Positions 2,162 to 22,574 of a DNA stretch of 23,099 nt are shown here, in pieces. The stretch covers positions 1 through 23,099 of IMG/VR virus record IMGVR_UViG_3300049893_003323. One strand, written 5' to 3'. The number at the start of each line of letters is the position of its first letter. Within the stretch, counting starts at the first letter, position 1. The notes under the pieces are model-generated. The model was not told the DNA's origin, did not search any database, and was given only the letters and a program-made list of their open reading frames with translations. The translations under genes were made by a program, and so were the position numbers. This stretch comes from a virus.

Positions 2162-2932
2162 TCAGGCGCGGCGTTTGCGAAGGGGGGCCTGCTCGTCGGT
2201 GAATCGTTTCAGCCATTTGGCTTCCTCGACCATCTTCGTCCAGAGCTGGTCGGGCAGCATGGACACATCCCCGGCGGCGGTCTCGCGGAGGAGGAAACTG
2301 GCGTTGACGATCTGCTCGGCCATTTCGATGACCAGTTCCCGGCGGCGCTGCTCCGCGCCATCCGGCGCGCGGTCGGGCCGGACGGTGATCTCCTTCTTGC
2401 ACCCCGAGCACTTGAGTTTCCGGCCGTGCATCCCGAGGTTTTCGGCCGCGCAGTGCGGGCAGTGGAAGGCGTATTTCCGAATTCCGCCCCGGCTCTTTTC
2501 CGCGCCGCCGCCCCAATCAAACGCCATCTGCCGGGCGGACACGCCATCAGCGATGTTGTCGAAGGATTTGCGCGCTTTTGCGGCTAGCGGCGGAAGCTCG
2601 GCGGGGGGGAGGGCAAGCACCGTCCCGATGGGCAAACCGTCAAAAGCGCAACAGTTGCGTATTTGGAGTTTTTGCGCCGCGCCCGCAGCGACCTGCATGT
2701 GGAATTGTGCCGTGCGCACCTTCATCCCGTTCGATTCCAGCCACGCCTCCCACTGCCCGTGCTCCAGCGTCTCTTTCTTCGCGAACAGCATGAATCCGCT
2801 GACCGCGCACGCGCGCCCGGCCACGCGCTCCGCGTTCACCGCCTTGCGATAGGCGTCGAGAATTTCCTCATCCCCCGGCACCACCACCGCCGGCACCTCC
2901 GGCATCACTTCCATTTCCATCGCTCCGTTCAC
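2162..2932 (-). CDS. DUF3102-like phage protein with zinc ribbon
   Basis: A 256-aa early protein of unknown function. The N-terminal half has the pattern I associate with DUF3102 phage proteins: a helix with AGRACAVSGFMLFAKK, then HGQWEAWLESNGMKVRTAQ. The middle has a four-cysteine zinc ribbon (HCPHCAAEN and KLKCSGCKKE, residues about 155-180). The C-terminus is helical and basic, ending RKRRA. The GTG at 2932 is preferred because it overlaps the upstream stop and has AAAGGA about 6 nt before it; ATG 2920 is an in-frame alternative. It sits just upstream of the transposase, so a DNA-binding or accessory role in transposition or early regulation is plausible but inferred. The DUF assignment is by pattern only. 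Confidence 0.72.
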   Translation of the reverse strand: MNGAMEMEVMPEVPAVVVPGDEEILDAYRKAVNAERVAGRACAVSGFMLFAKKETLEHGQWEAWLESNGMKVRTAQFHMQVAAGAAQKLQIRNCCAFDGLPIGTVLALPPAELPPLAAKARKSFDNIADGVSARQMAFDWGGGAEKSRGGIRKYAFHCPHCAAENLGMHGRKLKCSGCKKEITVRPDRAPDGAEQRRRELVIEMAEQIVNASFLLRETAAGDVSMLPDQLWTKMVEEAKWLKRFTDEQAPLRKRRA

Positions 2933-3399
2933 TTGGTTCCTTTCGTTTGTTCGTGCCGCAGGCGCTCGGCCTGCACGTTGATTGATAGCCGTTGCAACTC
3001 GATGGCGTTCGCCACCGCCGCATCGACCAGCGCGTTGAAATCGTCCAGCACCGGCGTTAGTCCGGCGCTGCCCACCCGGTCGATCATTTCGCGAACGGCC
3101 GCGAGCGTCTCCTCGTGCAGCACCCGGTTGGACTCGCGCATGATCTGCATTTCGCGGACGTCGCCGGCCAGGTTGAGCGCGTCGCGCAGCCATTTTTCCG
3201 AACACACCGGGCAGGCCCCGTGCGTGGCCGGCTCGCTGCCCTCGGCCATCACCAGTCCGCACCACGCGCACACGCGGCGGGGTGACACCGCGCCGGGCGA
3301 CGGCGGCGCGATGGATTTGGTTGAAGCCGGCATCTCCGCCCCGGTGGGATTGTCGCCGTGCTGGACGCCGGTCTGGGGTTCGTGCTGAAGAGTGTTCAT
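2929..3399 (-). CDS. Hypothetical early phage protein with CxxC pairs
   Basis: A 156-aa protein that I do not recognise. A Pro/Ser-rich N-terminus (about 1-40) leads into a probable zinc knuckle, CAWCGLVMAEG followed about 20 residues later by CPVCSEKW. The rest (about 70-156) is predicted-looking amphipathic helix with a basic end (HEQTKGTK). The layout suggests a small metal-binding DNA- or protein-interaction module with a helical tail. The ATG overlaps the stop of the upstream DnaA-like gene (ATGA), and its own stop overlaps the GTG of the next gene, so it is a coupled member of the early operon. Confidence 0.7.
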   Translation of the reverse strand: MNTLQHEPQTGVQHGDNPTGAEMPASTKSIAPPSPGAVSPRRVCAWCGLVMAEGSEPATHGACPVCSEKWLRDALNLAGDVREMQIMRESNRVLHEETLAAVREMIDRVGSAGLTPVLDDFNALVDAAVANAIELQRLSINVQAERLRHEQTKGTK

Positions 3400-3854
3400 G
3401 CGGCCTCCTGCTGTTGTTGCTTCAGCGTCGCCGCGATGGCGGCGCGGATGGCGGCGAGGTCTCGCTTGATGTCGGCGTGATTCGTCGCGATGCGGTCATG
3501 CACGCGGCGCACCGCGTTCGTGACCGTGCCGTGGTCGCGGTCAAACACGGCGGCGATGCGCGTGTTCAACAGCGCGTGATCGACGCGCATGAGGAACATC
3601 GCGACGTGGCGCGGCTGCACGACCCACTCGGGGCGTGTGACCCCGGCGAGATCGGAAACCTCAACCTTGTAGTGTTCGGCCACGGCTTCGAGCACGGCCT
3701 TCTCGACCGCGCCCGCGTGGCGAAGTCCGAGCACCACGTCGAGCCGGTCGCGCAGGTGCCGCGCATCCTCGGGCGTGAGGTTCAGCGTCATGCCCGCCAC
3801 GTCCACGTCGATGACTTCGCGGCGGCGCACGTCCGGCAGCTTAATGACACTCAC
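3396..3854 (-). CDS. Stand-alone DnaA domain IV-like DNA-binding protein
   Basis: A 152-aa protein whose middle resembles the DNA-binding domain of the replication initiator DnaA (Bac_DnaA_C). Residues about 66-120 contain DLAGVTRPEWVV, PRHVAMFLMR, then the signature-like FDRDHGTVTNAVRRV, matching DnaA's R-Q-hAMYL and GRDHTTV elements. No Walker A/B or other AAA+ sequence is present and the protein is far too short for full DnaA. It may bind DnaA-box-like sites in the phage or host origin, or act as an early regulator; this is inference. GTG 3854 overlaps the upstream stop, and the gene ends in a Gln-rich tail (KQQQQEAA). The length and position (early operon) argue for a dedicated phage gene rather than a broken dnaA. 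Confidence 0.75.
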   Translation of the reverse strand: MSVIKLPDVRRREVIDVDVAGMTLNLTPEDARHLRDRLDVVLGLRHAGAVEKAVLEAVAEHYKVEVSDLAGVTRPEWVVQPRHVAMFLMRVDHALLNTRIAAVFDRDHGTVTNAVRRVHDRIATNHADIKRDLAAIRAAIAATLKQQQQEAA

Positions 3855-4042
3855 GCCACACCTCCCGCGTGTGTGGTCTTGATCATCCGCGCCTTGATGC
3901 CCGTGGCGTCACAGTCCGGGCAGTCGAACCAGCCGCGGCTGGTCTGGAGTTCGCCGGTTCCGCCGCACTTCGGGCACGGGCCGGCATCGAGTTGGTGACG
4001 CACCGGCGGTGCGTCGTTGGGTTTTGTTGCTGGGTCTTTCAT
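3851..4042 (-). CDS. DnaJ-type zinc-finger mini-protein
   Basis: A 63-aa protein with two CxxCxxTG motifs, CPKCGGTG (about residues 23-30) and CPDCDATG (about 41-48). This spacing matches one half of the DnaJ central zinc-finger, so it should hold a single zinc ion. No J domain is present. Such short proteins are common in phage early regions and usually have no assigned function. The ATG at 4042 has AAAGG about 9 nt upstream; the stop overlaps the GTG of the DnaA-like gene. Confidence 0.7.
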   Translation of the reverse strand: MKDPATKPNDAPPVRHQLDAGPCPKCGGTGELQTSRGWFDCPDCDATGIKARMIKTTHAGGVA

Positions 4043-4054
4043 GGGTGGGGCCTT

Positions 4055-4546
4055 TCAAAGTCTGCGGTCGCGAAGAAATTTCGTGATGCTCTTCCACGTC
4101 ACCAGCGCCGCGCCGTGACGCCCGCGTGAGTAATCGGTGCCGGGCAGCATCGAGAGATCCCCGGCGTCGAGCAGGTAAATGATCATCTCGCTCGAACAGT
4201 TGAGGGCCAGCCGGAGATCAGGCGAAGGGACGAACGGCTTGTCCGCCCGCGTCGGGAACAACGTGGCCTCAATCTCCGGCCAGCCGAAATTCTTCCGCCC
4301 GGCGCGCCCGAGCAGTTGCTCGCGCCGCGCATCCACGCACGGTGCGAACACGCGCACTGCGCGCCGCTCTGCCTCGCTCCGCCCGATGTCGAGGGCGTAT
4401 TCCAGCGTGCCGTCGTCGATGTCCGCCAGCACCTCGTCCTCGGTGTAGGCCAGCGCGGCGCGCACGCCCTCGATGGTCATCATCGGCCGGAATTCCGGCA
4501 CGCGCAGGAGGCGCGGCTGGATCGGTGATGGCGCGAGCGCAGGCAT
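4055..4546 (-). CDS. Putative tandem winged-helix/excisionase-like DNA-binding protein
   Basis: A 163-aa protein with two modules that look alike. Module 1 (about 23-72) is TIEGVRAALAYTEDEVLADI, then DDGTLEYALDIGR; module 2 (about 106-163) is SPDLRLALNCSSEMIIYLL, then DAGDLSMLPGTDYSRGR, ending in an S-I-x-x-FL helix. Each reads as helix-turn-helix, a short Gly-containing turn (DDG, DAG), then a beta-wing, as in MerR/excisionase-type DNA-binding domains. The last helix (WKSITKFLRDRRL) matches the usual SI.xFL end of such domains. It could be an early regulator, an Mor/Xis-like factor or a transposition accessory. Function is inferred; only the second module is a comfortable match. Confidence 0.65.
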   Translation of the reverse strand: MPALAPSPIQPRLLRVPEFRPMMTIEGVRAALAYTEDEVLADIDDGTLEYALDIGRSEAERRAVRVFAPCVDARREQLLGRAGRKNFGWPEIEATLFPTRADKPFVPSPDLRLALNCSSEMIIYLLDAGDLSMLPGTDYSRGRHGAALVTWKSITKFLRDRRL

Positions 4547-4625: not shown

Positions 4626-4852
4626 GCGGCCCCCTTTGCTTCGCTCATCAGTTCGAGAAATTTTCGCTGCGCTCGCTCGTGCGTCAGCAGTCCCTCGCGC
4701 GACAGCGCGAGCCATTCGCGCCGCTGGCTGTCCTCGGGAAGCACGGCGATCAGCGACTCGATCAACGCGAGCCGCTCGCTCACACCGTCGGGCAGGGATT
4801 GGATCGCCGCGTCCGCGACGCGGTCGTAGTCGGTGGGGGTGGGGTTACGCAC
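4622..4852 (-). CDS. Hypothetical early phage protein, 76 aa
   Basis: A 76-aa, mostly helical, charged protein that I do not recognise. It contains DYDRVADAAIQSL, RLALIESLIAVLPED and QRKFLELMSEA, giving two or three amphipathic helices and no cysteines or membrane segment. The start is GTG 4852, 8 nt inside the upstream HTH gene, with AGGA about 5 nt upstream; it is therefore translationally coupled to that gene. Confidence 0.65.
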   Translation of the reverse strand: MRNPTPTDYDRVADAAIQSLPDGVSERLALIESLIAVLPEDSQRREWLALSREGLLTHERAQRKFLELMSEAKGAA

Positions 4853-5051
4853 AGAGTTCCTTTACGATCAGGTTGTAGGTGGGGCCGAACTGGTCGGGCC
4901 ATCGGACGGCCCGCCAGACGGTCGTGCGCTCGCGGTTGATGGCGCGGGCGAGGCCCGGCACGCCGCGGTGTCCGCGCTGCCAGGCGAGAGATTCCAGGTT
5001 CTCCGTGGTGACCGGATTTTCGCGTTTGACTTTTGGCAACTTCGGGCGCAT
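4845..5051 (-). CDS. Ner/Cro-like HTH regulator, first gene of the leftward early operon
   Basis: A 68-aa basic protein with one probable helix-turn-helix in RGHRGVPGLARAINRERTTV followed by WRAVRWP. Size, basic N-terminus (RPKLPKVKRE) and position as the first early gene divergent from the repressor parallel Ner of Mu and Cro of lambda, which turn down early transcription or the repressor promoter. The ATG at 5051 lies 19 bp downstream of the proposed -10 box. The likely targets are the TTTTAGTTACG repeats directly upstream. Family placement is by architecture and HTH pattern, not by close sequence match. Confidence 0.68.
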   Translation of the reverse strand: MRPKLPKVKRENPVTTENLESLAWQRGHRGVPGLARAINRERTTVWRAVRWPDQFGPTYNLIVKELCA

Positions 5052-5055
5052 ACCG

Positions 5056-5113
5056 TTTTAGTTACGCAACTTTTAGTTACGAACACGGAAGTCGTCAAAC
5101 ATTTTTTAGCAAC
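5056..5113. promoter_or_regulatory. Divergent operator region: repeated TTTTAGTTACG sites
   Basis: Two exact copies of TTTTAGTTACG lie at 5056-5066 and 5071-5081, 15 bp apart. A partial third copy (TTTTAGCAAC) is at 5104-5113. The set fills most of the 76-bp gap between the divergent HTH genes and overlaps the leftward -10 box, as expected of repressor/Ner operators. Which regulator binds is not shown by the sequence. Confidence 0.55.
5070..5098 (-). promoter_or_regulatory. Leftward early promoter (predicted)
   Basis: On the minus strand TTGACG (5098-5093) and TAAAAG (5075-5070) are separated by exactly 17 bp, a good sigma-70-like match. The predicted transcript would start about 12 bp before the Ner/Cro-like ATG, so the leader is very short. 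The -10 box overlaps the second TTTTAGTTACG repeat, so occupancy there would block it. Confidence 0.5.
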
Positions 5114-5127
5114 TCAACAAAGTTTTT

Positions 5128-5520
5128 GTGACCGAGAACAACCGGAAATTTTGCGAGATGGTTGATGCGAGCGGATGGACCCGCTCTGAAGTCGCGCGGC
5201 GGCTGCACAAGTCGCCGGGCGCGATCACGCAGTTTTGTCAGGGCGCGACGCGGCCGAGCGACGCGGTGATGGAATTGTTCCGCATGATTTTGGCTAAAGA
5301 AAATCCCACCGCCGTCGATAAGTCCCCAAAGCCGAGGGAGCGCATGAAAGAACCGTTGGAAGACATGGGCGGGGGCGTCGCCAAGGACGAGATTCCCGAG
5401 TTGAAGCGTAAGCTGGACGAGATTGCCGAGTCAGACGATGACCTGCGCATGATCAAGCAGGTGATTGACTACGCACACGCGCACCGCCGGAAAAAGCGGC
5501 GCGAGAAAAAGGAGCGATGA
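5128..5520 (+). CDS. XRE/Cro-CI family phage repressor
   Basis: A 130-aa protein read divergently from the early operon. The N-terminus carries a clear HTH (about residues 15-50): WTRSEVARRLHKSPGAITQF, then GATRPSD, typical of HTH_XRE. The C-terminal half is charged and helical, ending in a strongly basic run (HRRKKRREKKER). There is no S24/LexA-type protease domain, so RecA-driven self-cleavage is not expected; induction would need another route. GTG 5128 is the likely start because it keeps the full first helix; ATG 5158 is possible but would cut it. No good Shine-Dalgarno precedes GTG. The stop overlaps the next ATG. Confidence 0.75.
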   Translation: MTENNRKFCEMVDASGWTRSEVARRLHKSPGAITQFCQGATRPSDAVMELFRMILAKENPTAVDKSPKPRERMKEPLEDMGGGVAKDEIPELKRKLDEIAESDDDLRMIKQVIDYAHAHRRKKRREKKER

Positions 5521-5942: not shown

Positions 5943-6084
5943 CCTGCTCCCCGCGTGGCTGGCCTGGCCGCTCGTCGCCATCGGCGTCATCGCCGGCTGG
6001 GTCGTGATCTTGATGGCGCGCGACGCCCTCTTCGGCCCGCGCCGCCGCGGCCCGCGCGACAACTACCACCGGCCGAGGCGTTGA
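5935..6084 (+). CDS. 49-aa single-TM membrane protein
   Basis: A 49-aa protein with one strong membrane helix (LAWPLVAIGVIAGWVVILMA) and a very basic tail (GPRRRGPRDNYHRPRR), predicting a cytoplasmic C-terminus. Its ATG overlaps the end of the GYF_2 gene by 8 nt, so the two are coupled and may work together in the membrane. The last base of its stop codon is the first base of a 44-bp palindromic repeat. Function unknown. Confidence 0.62.
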   Translation: MSDLLPAWLAWPLVAIGVIAGWVVILMARDALFGPRRRGPRDNYHRPRR

Positions 6085-6127
6085 CGCGAATTTCGCGAAT
6101 TCGCGCGAATTCGCAAAATTCGCGTAA
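6084..6127. repeat. Palindromic repeat element, copy 1 (44 bp)
   Basis: A 44-bp imperfect palindrome built from GCGAATT/AATTCGC units, starting ACGCGAATTT and ending ATTCGCGTAA. It matches the element at 22531-22574 at 41 of 44 positions, while the flanks of the two copies are unrelated. It would fold into a long hairpin in DNA or RNA. It is much more AT-rich than its surroundings. It may be a REP-like or MITE-like element; no protein of its own is evident. Confidence 0.75.
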
Positions 6128-6183
6128 GCCCTCCCCGGTTTTCGCTTGAGTCCGCGCGCGCTCGGCTGTAGAAGGTTCCCCGC

Positions 6184-10206: not shown

Positions 10207-10229
10207 AAATTGGCAACAGTTGCCAATTT
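10207..10229. repeat. Perfect 11-bp inverted repeat
   Basis: AAATTGGCAAC and its exact reverse complement GTTGCCAATTT are separated by a single A. In DNA this is a dyad suited to a dimeric regulator; in RNA the one-base loop would force the innermost pairs open. It belongs to the palindrome-rich gap upstream of the portal gene. Confidence 0.7.
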
Positions 10230-18870: not shown

Positions 18871-19562
18871 AAAATTTCACCCTCCGCGAAATCTGGCTGC
18901 CGCTCGACGTGAACGGCGATGAAGAGGCTTCCACCCTCAACGGCGCGGCCCCGCTGATCTTCCCCGGCTTCGAGTACATGTTCCGCATCGGCATCTTCGA
19001 CCGGATGCCGGCGGGCGAGGATGACCCCGGCGAGTTCCGCAACATCGCCAGCCTCGTCGCCTTCATCATGCGCGTGAAACAGACCAGTTACGCGGGCACG
19101 ACGCTGATCGACACCAGCGACGGCGCGGCCATCGCCGCCGGTGCGACGGTGCTCTTCGATCCCACCTGCACGGAGGCCGAGTTCGTCGCCAAGACGAAAG
19201 CCCCGGTGAATGTCTATCTGCCCGCGGCCATCACCAACCCGACCGGCATCACCAGCGCCGAACAACAATGGGTCACGTTCACCGGCGCGACCGTGGACGC
19301 CGCCGCGCAGCCGGACGCCTTTGGCCGCTGCCGCCTGCGCGTGATTGATCTCGGCCAGGGCGCGGCCTCGTCGCCGCCCGCGCCGGCCACGAACTACGTG
19401 ACCAGCGACATCTTCGCCGCCGCGATGAACGGCGTCGTCAAGTTCGGCGTCAACCCGCGCGGCCGATACCCGATCCTCGTCAACACCGACGGCAGCAAGG
19501 GCACCACCGTCCGCGCCGGGGACAACGGTGAACTGGTGTCCGAGATTGTTGAGAATCCGTGA
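18867..19562 (+). CDS. Hypothetical tail-region protein, 231 aa
   Basis: A 231-aa protein with a beta-rich sequence: LREIWLPLDVNGDEEAS, FIMRVKQTSYAGTTLIDTSD, and QQWVTFTGATVDAAAQPD followed by RCRLRVIDLG. The pattern resembles an upper-baseplate or fibre-base protein (a globular beta domain plus a thin C-terminal linker), but no family is certain. It sits directly before, and overlaps, the fibre gene, so it may attach the fibre to the virion. Confidence 0.55.
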   Translation: MKNFTLREIWLPLDVNGDEEASTLNGAAPLIFPGFEYMFRIGIFDRMPAGEDDPGEFRNIASLVAFIMRVKQTSYAGTTLIDTSDGAAIAAGATVLFDPTCTEAEFVAKTKAPVNVYLPAAITNPTGITSAEQQWVTFTGATVDAAAQPDAFGRCRLRVIDLGQGAASSPPAPATNYVTSDIFAAAMNGVVKFGVNPRGRYPILVNTDGSKGTTVRAGDNGELVSEIVENP

Positions 19563-19573
19563 TTTCCAAACCC

Positions 19574-22486
19574 ATGAAAACCTTTTGCAAAGACATTTCG
19601 CGGCTCGTGCTTCGTGCTTCGTGCTTCGCCTTCGCGCTGGGCACGCTGGCGGTGACGGCGCAGGCGGCCACCTTCTACAAGGGCACCATCACCATCACCA
19701 GCGTGCCGCCGGCCAATGCGGTGTTGTCCGCGCCGGGTGACGCGCGCGGGTGGCAGACGGCCGCGAGCATCACCAACGCGCAGCGCCAGATCGCGACCAC
19801 CAACACGCTCCAGGCTGCGGCCACGAATCTATTCCAGCACCTGAGCCTCTACGGGTTCACCAACGTGAACGGCGTGAAGCTGGGCACGAACAACACCGCG
19901 CTGCCCACGAACACCGTGGTGCTGGAAATGGCGGTCGATCAGTTCGTGACGCTCACCACGTTGAGCAATTGGGCGACGATCACTTATTCGACGAACAGCG
20001 GCGCGGCGATGGTGGCCGTGCGCGTCCCGCACACGTCCGAGGCCGGGCTGGTGCAGACGCAGATCGTGACGGGGTTGATTAACGCGCTGGCCGATTCACG
20101 CGCGACGAACAAGATCACCAACACATCGCCGGCCTTCAGCGAATTCATCACCACGCGCACCAATGTGCAGAGCGTGACGAATCTGAACACGCGCGGCGGG
20201 ACGAACTTCAACGGCTACCTCTCCGGCGCGAGCGGGCAACTGAGCAACGTGGGCGTGGTGAATCTGGTCGCGACGAATTTCAGCGCGCCGGGTGCTGGCG
20301 CGTCATCACTGGCCATTGGCAACGGGGCCTCGGCAATTGGAGCGTCAGCAATTAGCATTGGAGACAATGCGGCCGCCACGAACGCAAACTCGATTGCCAT
20401 CGGCGTCGATACCATTGCCGAGGGCGAATTTTCAACCGCAGTGGGTTCCGCAGCATCGGCGACCGCATTCGGCGCGACCGCATTTGGCGACAGCGCCGTG
20501 GCGTCTGCCGTTGGGGCGGCTGCGTTTGGCGCAAGTGCCGGAGCGGCACACTCGAACGCTGTTGCGGTTGGCGCGCTCGCGCAGACCACGCAAACCAACC
20601 AAATCCGCCTTGGCACGGCCGCCGAGACGGTGAGCATCCCTGGCTCGTTCGACCTCCTCGGCACGGGCACGGTGGCGCGGTTGGTGGTGACGAATCTGGA
20701 CGTGCAGGCCGGCACGTTGACGAATGTCGGCATCGCCGCCAGCGGCCTCACCGCCACGCAGGCAATCATCGTCACGCTCAACGCGACGAACGGCACGCTG
20801 ACCAACCTCAAGCTGCACACGGTCGAGAATACGCAGCACTTCACGAACTCGGGCGCGGTGCTGCATCGCGAGCGCACGGTGTCGTCGCTGGCGGCGGGCA
20901 ACAACATCATCGACCGGGGCACGAACAACTTCGTCTTCTTCTCCGCCACGGCGGGCGCGGCCACGGTCAACGCAATCACCAACGGGTTCGGTGATGGCGA
21001 CTGGATTGACGCGGTGAACGGCACGGGCTACGCCCTGACGGTGGCGAATCAGAGCGGCTTCAGCACCATCCCGCAGAACCGCATCCTGACCGTGAACGGC
21101 GCGAGCAATGTCACGGTTTTCCCCGGCGGCTTGATGCGCTTCCGTTACAGCGCCAATGACGCGCGGTGGCTGCTCGTTTATCCCGAGGTCTTCAGCGCCG
21201 TGGCCACGAATGCCATCGCGTCGGTGAACGGCGCGGGGAGCAACACATTCCTGATCGCGCCGGTCTTCGCGACCTCGGCCACGAGCACGAACACCACGAA
21301 CGCATGGGTGTGGACGGCCAGCGGCACGAACGGCGCGGGCGCATGGGCACCGGCCCCAAGCGGCGCGACGAACTTTGTGCTGGCGCTGAACGGCGCGGGC
21401 ACGAACTTGGCCGCGACGTATTTCACCGGCGCCACGAACGATCCCTTTCAGGTGCAGTCGAGCAACGGCACGCCGGTGCTGGTGGTGAAGACGAACGGGC
21501 GCGTGGGCATCGGCACGGTCACGCCGGAGGCGCTGGTGACGATCAGCAACGCGCCAGGCAACACAGGCACGCCGCTCTTCCACGCCGGCACGAACAATAC
21601 CGCAAACGGCTTGTGGGTGACAACGAACGGGAACGTGGGCGTGGGGACGGCCGCGCCGAGTTACACGATGCATGTGGCGGGGAATGGGTTTTTCTCCAGC
21701 GACCTCACGCTGGGCGCGGGGCGATACTTCTACCCGCGTGAAAGTTCGACACTGGAGCGGATTGGATCTCCGAATTCGGGTTCGCTCGAAATGGGAAATG
21801 GTGCGTCAACTTTTCTCGGCGTCACCGTCGGTGCCGGTTCCGGGCTTCCGCTCGCGACGATGCACATCAGCAATGCGCCGGTCGCGCTCGACCCGCTGCG
21901 CGTCTATACGCGCGCGGGCAACGGCGCGCTGCCCGCGCTCACCGTGACCACGAACCGGGTGACGTTGATCGGTGCGACGGCGGCCACGAACACGCCCACG
22001 GCCGGGCACGCCGGACTGTTCGCCGCCACGAATTCGGGCACGGTGGCGTTGATGGCCATCGACTCGGCGGGCGGGCTGCGGGATTTGTCTCCGTCCGCCT
22101 TCGCCTCCGCGTCGCTGACGACGAACGGTTACATCACGCTCGGGTGGGTGGACGGATGGAACATCACCACGACGGGCGGGAGCACGGCCATCGTGAGCAA
22201 CAACTCGACGGTGTGGCTGACCAACGCGGGCGCGTACGAGGTGAGTTTCGGCACCGGCATCATTGGCGGCAACTCGGACTCGGTGGCGGTGAGTTTTTAC
22301 ACCAACGGCGTCGAGTTCCCGCTGCGCATGAGCGCGGTGATGTCCAGTCCGGCCGTGCAGGAGACGGGGTTCAAGACGGCCATCGTGAGCCTGCCCGGCA
22401 ACTCGAACGTGCGGATGTGGGCAACGAACTTCAGCAGCGCAACACTCGGGCTGTCGAATGCGTGCCTGGTGGTGAAGCGGTTGTGA
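19574..22486 (+). CDS. Long YadA-like fibre or adhesin with signal peptide
   Basis: A 970-aa protein. It begins with a signal-peptide-like segment (charged start, then ASCFAFALGTLAVTAQA). Residues about 245-340 are YadA-head-type repeats (SLAIGNGASAIGASAISIGD, NSIAIGVDTIAEGEF, AAFGASAGAAHSNAVAVG), which form a trimeric beta-roll. Later come two GxVGxGTxxP repeats (GRVGIGTVTPEALV and GNVGVGTAAPSYTM) common in phage fibres, and a C-terminal beta-sandwich reminiscent of C1q/TNF-like tips (AGAYEVSFGTGIIGG, SFYTNGVEFPL, SLPGNSNVRMWATNF). It is Asn/Thr-rich throughout. ATG 19574 is preferred because it gives the short signal-like start; GTG 19559 in the same frame overlaps the upstream stop. Probably the receptor-binding fibre or a secreted surface adhesin. 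Confidence 0.75.
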   Translation: MKTFCKDISRLVLRASCFAFALGTLAVTAQAATFYKGTITITSVPPANAVLSAPGDARGWQTAASITNAQRQIATTNTLQAAATNLFQHLSLYGFTNVNGVKLGTNNTALPTNTVVLEMAVDQFVTLTTLSNWATITYSTNSGAAMVAVRVPHTSEAGLVQTQIVTGLINALADSRATNKITNTSPAFSEFITTRTNVQSVTNLNTRGGTNFNGYLSGASGQLSNVGVVNLVATNFSAPGAGASSLAIGNGASAIGASAISIGDNAAATNANSIAIGVDTIAEGEFSTAVGSAASATAFGATAFGDSAVASAVGAAAFGASAGAAHSNAVAVGALAQTTQTNQIRLGTAAETVSIPGSFDLLGTGTVARLVVTNLDVQAGTLTNVGIAASGLTATQAIIVTLNATNGTLTNLKLHTVENTQHFTNSGAVLHRERTVSSLAAGNNIIDRGTNNFVFFSATAGAATVNAITNGFGDGDWIDAVNGTGYALTVANQSGFSTIPQNRILTVNGASNVTVFPGGLMRFRYSANDARWLLVYPEVFSAVATNAIASVNGAGSNTFLIAPVFATSATSTNTTNAWVWTASGTNGAGAWAPAPSGATNFVLALNGAGTNLAATYFTGATNDPFQVQSSNGTPVLVVKTNGRVGIGTVTPEALVTISNAPGNTGTPLFHAGTNNTANGLWVTTNGNVGVGTAAPSYTMHVAGNGFFSSDLTLGAGRYFYPRESSTLERIGSPNSGSLEMGNGASTFLGVTVGAGSGLPLATMHISNAPVALDPLRVYTRAGNGALPALTVTTNRVTLIGATAATNTPTAGHAGLFAATNSGTVALMAIDSAGGLRDLSPSAFASASLTTNGYITLGWVDGWNITTTGGSTAIVSNNSTVWLTNAGAYEVSFGTGIIGGNSDSVAVSFYTNGVEFPLRMSAVMSSPAVQETGFKTAIVSLPGNSNVRMWATNFSSATLGLSNACLVVKRL

Positions 22487-22530: not shown

Positions 22531-22574
22531 ACGCGAATTTCACAAATTCGCGCGAATTCGCGAAATTCGCGTAA
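22531..22574. repeat. Palindromic repeat element, copy 2 (44 bp)
   Basis: Matches copy 1 (6084-6127) at 41 of 44 bases with no gap; the differences are G/A transitions. It starts ACGCGAATTT and ends ATTCGCGTAA and is an imperfect palindrome. It lies between the fibre gene and a 53-aa membrane-protein gene, inside a 31-codon frame (22498-22593) that ends by ATGA on the next start. Confidence 0.75.

Follow-up and report, generated by a model that had tools for sequence, protein, structure and literature searches.

Introduction

Stand-alone copies of DnaA domain IV, the box-reading domain of the bacterial replication initiator, are already known in phages by annotation. A search of BFVD returns 34 viral models that match at E values up to 0.001, many of them named "Chromosomal replication initiator, DnaA C-terminal". 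The proteins of this kind from uncultured Caudovirales phages in BFVD/UniProt, and similar ones in Rhizobium phage RHph_N28_2, are mostly small and have one DnaA-IV domain. Those of named phages that we viewed in context sit in recombination/replication modules of non-transposing phages, and in two Bradyrhizobium phages and one Rhizobium phage ERF, YqaJ, DUF1376 and methyltransferase genes are annotated in the DnaA-IV region. The domain is thus widely annotated in phage sequence, yet in the open-licence PMC literature we found no tested function for any stand-alone phage DnaA-IV and no description of one in transposable phages.

Here we analyze an IMG/VR virus record of 23,099 bases that is linked to no host genome (the window), in which a protein of this kind sits, unlike those of the named phages, in a transposase operon. 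Transposing phages, which are expected to lack an oriC-type origin, make a good test case for the role of the domain, because a role at a phage origin is unlikely there. If such a protein blocks the DnaA boxes of its host, it would be a takeover device that competes for a DNA site instead of the initiator protein, and also a small natural means of stopping initiation. The recurrent place of the gene in Mu-like early operons, which we describe below, seems undescribed in that literature.

A DnaA domain IV without the rest of DnaA

The open reading frame at 3396-3854 on the minus strand, which begins with GTG, encodes a protein of 152 aa with a domain at about residues 49-145, and FDRDHGTVTNAV is present exactly in its translation. 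PF08299 (Bac_DnaA_C; curated cut-off 31.5 bits) matches residues 53-118 with an E value of 8.7e-16 and 58.1 bits, and no second Pfam family scores above its cut-off. In a phmmer search against PDB sequences, the best match is 1j1v, E. coli DnaA domain IV (E 5.6e-8), followed by the DnaA proteins of M. tuberculosis and A. aeolicus, and PHROG 27829 (DnaA-like replication initiation protein) matches weakly (E 0.038, 15 bits). The AAA+ ATPase of DnaA (domain III) gives no Pfam match over cut-off in this protein or in the scanned neighbors of the early operon, and residues 1-52 give no match over cut-off to the N-terminal domain I, which makes the DnaB and self contacts.

The AlphaFold model of the protein has a mean pLDDT of 86.3, with ten-residue blocks of 91-98 over residues 51-150. 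All 12 of the best PDB chains found by Foldseek with this model are DnaA, and VIA-align gives Z scores of 17.2 to 3pvp_A (M. tuberculosis DnaA-DBD) and 16.5 to 1j1v_A, with the first unrelated entry at Z 6.0. The ParB, DeoR, MarR and sigma-factor chains in the VIA-align list lie far under DnaA (Z 4.5-6). Profile match and modeled fold together confirm that the frame encodes a real DnaA domain IV. An earlier note on this DNA had described a DnaA-like DNA-binding domain without an ATPase part and had named the prediction of another HTH family as one outcome that would speak against it; the PF08299 score, the fold and the missing AAA+ match bear the description out. The likeness to DnaA domain IV (PF08299; 1j1v, 3pvp) extends to R399, R407, D433 and H434, which are kept (E. 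coli numbering), while the window protein differs in that domains I-III were not found and in having T at 423, a host-like G at 435 and N at 439. A pattern scan of IMG/VR for close relatives gave 27 stretches that fit the pattern, none of which was confirmed, and among named phage records there are just two weak matches, with 31.8 and 35.5% identity.

The gene belongs to the early operon of a Mu-like phage

The window shares with Mu/B3-like transposable phages a divergent repressor, an early operon with MuA and a Mu-type terminase, and it differs from them in carrying the DnaA-IV gene in its early operon and in that Mor was not found. The operon lies on the minus strand. Its first gene (4845-5051, 68 aa) is in the position of Mu Ner, an assignment made on position only, with a weak PHROG match; it is followed by a 163-aa gene with no family in Pfam or PHROGs (4055-4546) and, directly upstream of the DnaA-IV gene, by a 63-aa CxxC zinc-ribbon-like gene with weak Pfam matches below cut-off (3851-4042). 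Directly downstream come a 156-aa gene with no family (2929-3399) and a 251-aa gene with a zinc-ribbon-like stretch (2162-2917), which matches phrog_6146 (unknown function) with E 2.7e-5 and has all its Pfam matches under cut-off. The last early gene in the window, at 3-2153, encodes a MuA-like transposase (phrog_310, 38.1 bits) with 34-36% identity to MuA genes from two other viral records and no match among named phages. A repressor-like HTH protein is encoded divergently at 5128-5520 on the plus strand (PF13560, 27.2 bits against a cut-off of 27), and the AT-rich stretch between the two operons holds two direct repeats TTTTAGTTACG, 15 bp apart (5056-5081), which are a probable operator.

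The DnaA-IV gene overlaps each neighbor by 4 bp, its start lying in GTGA (3851-3854) over the upstream stop and its stop in ATGA (3396-3399) over the downstream start, and the ribosome-binding site GGGAGGTG lies upstream of its start. These overlaps and the ribosome-binding site indicate a coupled operon gene rather than a stray frame. The right part of the window is a late region of Mu/B3 type, and its terminase has 28-37% identity to those of named Mu/B3-like phages, for example Alteromonadaceae phage B23 and Pseudomonas B3, so that transposase and terminase both agree with the Mu-like early operon proposed before. The record stops just past the MuA gene, which places MuB outside it; in related loci MuB follows MuA. 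No match to GemA or Gam (PF06252, PF07352) occurs in the window, part of the early region being beyond it.

Relatives of the terminase in bacterial genome contigs point to the probable host. Nine such loci have 29-72% identity; in seven of them the MAG carries the label Verrucomicrobia(-ota), Limisphaerales, Spartobacteria or Opitutaceae, and the other two are from Acidobacteriia and Desulfobacteraceae. The two closest (72%) are from Verrucomicrobia and Limisphaerales. From these MAGs we infer that the phage host is a member of Verrucomicrobiota.

Free-standing DnaA-IV genes recur in diverse Mu-like loci

Free-standing DnaA-IV genes are present in 12 diverse Mu-like loci, namely the window and those that we label G003, G022, G038, G036, G269 C4, G284, L147, L154, L157, L158 and L159. 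Scans with MuA and terminase gave 33 virus records, many of them fragments without the early region, and PF08299 is found in two of these (G003 and G022). Among the MAGs with a related terminase, eight of nine were searched, and two (G038 and G036) have a free-standing gene besides the host dnaA; L053 of G036 looks like the end of dnaA. More than one PF08299 match occurs in 19 of 288 Verrucomicrobiota genomes. When these 19 and two others were re-examined, seven matches outside dnaA were over cut-off, in five genomes; four are free-standing (one in G256, two in G269 and one in G284), and a Mu-like early region was found for two (G269 C4 and G284). A PF08299 match in G267 was rejected as a free-standing gene, being dnaA cut by the contig end, as were most of the additional matches in these 21 genomes, which are weak and in many cases belong to open frames some 300-360 aa long; judged by eye, we take such frames to be transposase proteins with a DnaA-C tail.

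The seven loci from the window to G284 were found without sequence patterns. IMG/VR was also scanned twice with patterns such as (N/D/G)RDHG(T/A)V or DHGTVIHA; the scans brought in 19 and 16 loci, some contigs being common to both, and the choice of patterns makes G435, H434 and H439 over-represented in those loci. Local profiles of MuA, MuB, Gam and GemA identified five further Mu-like loci among the 16 (L147, L154, L157, L158 and L159). All five have PF08299 over cut-off and a MuB-like PHROG match, and three of the four scanned for a MuA-like match have one (it is absent from L159, and L157 was outside the scan). Over the 66 pairs among the 12 loci, MuA identity is 15-57% (median 23%) and DnaA-IV identity is 17-44% (median 30%). 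None of nine named Mu-like phages has a DnaA-IV match over cut-off, StopSmel giving one weak match of 16.3 bits. The gene is therefore a recurrent accessory of Mu-like phages and not a core part. The earlier note had called it an unusual partner for a transposing phage, which is right only in part, given the 12 loci with the gene and the nine named phages without a match over cut-off.

A tree of 33 domain sequences, from which the five later loci were left out, places the host DnaAs in one clade (support 78) and the Rhizobiales phage proteins in another (91), and groups no Mu-locus proteins at a support of 75; one capture or several would both fit it. The protein of G022 (L058:721-1437) carries about 120 additional aa at its N-terminus, in which no Pfam family is recognized. 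In the genome G269 a DnaA-IV gene occurs twice, each time in another phage setting; the second gene (L080:8775-9140, in the prophage-like region C35) lies directly before a gene that by eye is DnaB-helicase-like.

Domain IV forms the C-terminus of DnaA and the 12 sequences are divergent, as could be expected if the gene were a functionless, decaying remnant of a captured dnaA. We regard this as very improbable, since the domain is intact in 12 loci whose MuA proteins have so low a median identity, and the window gene keeps its tight overlaps on both sides and its ribosome-binding site.

Position of the gene within Mu-like operons

The DnaA-IV gene lies after MuB in nine of the 12 loci, frequently with Gam or a GemA-like gene next to it. 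In seven loci it is downstream of Gam (G003, G022, G038, G036, L147, L157 and L158), with a 4-bp overlap in G022 and G038, and in three of these seven (G003, G036 and L157) a GemA-like gene comes next. In G269 C4 its place is between MuB and Gam, and in L154 it is 66 bp past MuB, near the end of the contig, whereas the window, G284 and L159 have it upstream of MuA. The terminases of the window and G003 share 76% identity, while their DnaA-IV proteins share 33% and occupy different operon slots, which suggests that the gene has been exchanged or moved.

The place after Gam, in three cases followed by a GemA-like gene, is near the gemA-mor place of Mu, and the main rival to the reading that we prefer below is that the protein regulates transcription at a DnaA-box-like phage operator and so stands in for the Mor/C activators. 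A search of 25 records and genomes for Mor (PF08765) gave two with a match, both without a free-standing DnaA-IV gene; six of the seven carriers then known are among those 25 (G036 is outside them), and none has Mor. The window record has no Mor/C (PF08765) match, and its DnaA-IV protein matches PF08299 alone over cut-off. Leptospira transposable prophages are likewise described without Mor/C in a passage of PMC8705779, and the divergent contact residues of some members would fit other operators. However, the gene is upstream of MuA in the window, G284 and L159, and related Verrucomicrobiota Mu-like phages without DnaA-IV are also without Mor, which argues against a simple exchange of Mor for DnaA-IV. 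In addition, no common phage operator was found, the lone TTATTCACA of G003 (14477) not being repeated in other loci. We consider a regulatory role unlikely on balance, though more likely than the other alternatives.

MuB is an AAA+ protein, like DnaA, and the DnaA-IV gene is near MuA and MuB wherever these are in view, in L154 at 66 bp from MuB. The protein could accordingly aid transposition in the choice of target sites or the loading of replication proteins, perhaps by recruiting MuB, host DnaA or DnaB to DnaA-box sites, and non-Mu phages can also have the gene near replication-type genes, such as those of DUF1376 proteins. MuB is outside the window, however, and most related Mu-like records, many of them fragments, show no such gene, so we think this role improbable. 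A specific form of it, to which we give only a very small chance, is that the orphan domain and MuB would form a split, re-assembled DnaA, in which domain IV would read host boxes and MuB would be the ATPase, so that transposition would be aimed at oriC-like sites with replication proteins at hand.

DnaA boxes are enriched near host dnaA and not in phage DNA

Expected box counts were taken in each case from 20 first-order Markov sequences, and the numbers involved are small. The positive control consists of 20 Verrucomicrobiota dnaA regions (L108, L109, L113, L114, L123 and L125 among them), which contain 15 TTATNCACA sites against 1.7 expected. All 15 read TTATTCACA, never TTATCCACA; they fall in nine of the 20 regions, the other 11 having none, and six regions have paired sites 283-296 bp apart. 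The host DnaAs of this phylum, with its TTATTCACA boxes, have G or A where E. coli has T435.

The window contains no TTATNCACA and no TTWTNCACA in its 23,099 bases; TTWTNCACA within one mismatch occurs nine times against 10.0 expected, and TTATTCACA within two mismatches 11 times against 15.9. Over the 12 Mu loci with the gene, there are two TTATNCACA against 1.2 expected and eight TTWTNCACA against 5.8, and over 18 non-Mu loci with the gene four against 3.7 and eight against 11.6, respectively. Seven related records without the gene have six TTATNCACA against 2.3 expected and seven TTWTNCACA against 7.4. Nothing in these counts suggests that phages with the gene retain boxes in their own genomes. 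A single TTATTCACA lies between the early and late operons of G003 (L056, 14477).

These counts bear on the proposal, also made in the earlier note, which suggested a search for boxes in the phage, that the protein, by binding DnaA boxes of the phage, initiates replication at these sites or draws it to them. The PHROG name of its weak match, DnaA-like replication initiation protein, is in keeping with this proposal. However, the search gave no excess in the window or in the 12 Mu loci together, and no AAA+ or DnaB-binding part was found in the protein; we therefore consider the proposal quite improbable. Both this role and a partnership with MuB or the target site are less likely than competition for host boxes or regulation of transcription. 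With host dnaA regions enriched in boxes and phage DNA not, host boxes are favored over phage boxes as the target, although the absence of enrichment in phage DNA is equally expected for a protein with another recognition sequence.

Contact residues are partly conserved

Residue R74 of the window protein corresponds to R399 of E. coli DnaA, D107-H108-G109 to positions 433-435 and N113 to 439. The base-specific contacts of DnaA listed in a passage of PMC7561715 are R399, P423, D433, H434, T435 and H439, and R399A and T435M are described as defective in a passage of PMC5742627. The residues of the window protein at these six positions are R, T, D, H, G and N, three of them as in E. coli, and both the minor-groove arginine R399 and R407 are kept. 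Of the 12 Mu-locus proteins, all have R399 and 11 have R407, while D433 and H434 are each present in 10. Residues were counted in these 12 and 17 other proteins, with L078, L080 and L090 (same as G003) left out, as were the repeats or near copies L094-L096, L099, L100, L103-L105, L151-L153, L155, L156 and L161.

Verrucomicrobiota DnaAs have G at position 435 in 22 of 26 cases and A in four, so G435 of the window protein is host-like and need not reflect decay. The window protein differs from the DnaA of its likely hosts at 439, and in place of the basic SKRR stretch that ends in R399 it has GVTR, a change that may weaken binding. D433-H434 is lost in whole or part in two of the 12 Mu-locus proteins (Y-P in G036 and D-R in G269), and a third, G022, reads N-H-S, so that the reading of DnaA boxes cannot be assumed for some members.

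Proposed competition for host DnaA boxes

The reading that we prefer, tentatively and with somewhat less than even confidence, is that the window protein would be made early and bind host DnaA boxes as a dead-end competitor, holding back DnaA at oriC and/or DnaA-controlled transcription. A box-reading domain without a motor, the lack of phage boxes and the ready supply of host boxes make a host-directed competitor the simplest account. The gene product would be a stand-alone reader of DnaA boxes, expressed early from the operon that it shares with the transposase, and its predicted targets would be host boxes such as TTATTCACA near dnaA. DnaA assembly at oriC and/or DnaA-controlled transcription would then be blocked while the phage replicates by transposition, and a stalled oriC might leave replisome parts for the phage. 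We infer the DnaA box of this host from the phylum, and the host in turn from the terminase relatives.

Mu replication is not known to need DnaA at oriC. In E. coli, as a passage of PMC3325207 describes, it begins at transposition forks via PriA and host replisome proteins, and a host-directed block would therefore spare the phage. Non-transposing carriers of the gene, which other loci of the pattern scans include (their neighbors were judged by eye), are also without an excess of boxes, and a host-directed role fits both life styles. Phage proteins against host initiation include lambda P and YfdR (in a passage of PMC4776307) and 77ORF104, which acts on DnaI (in a passage of PMC4887207). If the competitor reading holds, the DnaA-IV protein would likewise stop host initiation, but lambda P, YfdR and 77ORF104 bind host replication proteins, whereas it would compete for a DNA site. 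Competition with host DnaA, as first put forward in the earlier note, is compatible with the kept contacts and with box enrichment in the host only, whereas T423, G435 and N439 differ from E. coli.

Other features of the window

A near-perfect palindrome of 42-45 bp with the core GCGAATTCGCGCGAATTCGC has two copies, at 6084-6128 and 22531-22574, which are 93% alike and fall within the late region, inside intergenic stretches or close to them; it was not found in the other fetched loci and could be a binding site, a terminator or a dispersed repeat. A 23-bp palindrome around AATTGGCAACAGTTGCCAATT lies at 10207-10229, in the stretch after the terminase gene. Among the tail genes, the 975-aa open reading frame at 19559-22486 has repeats that we take to resemble YadA-head repeats, and it possibly encodes a fiber or adhesin.
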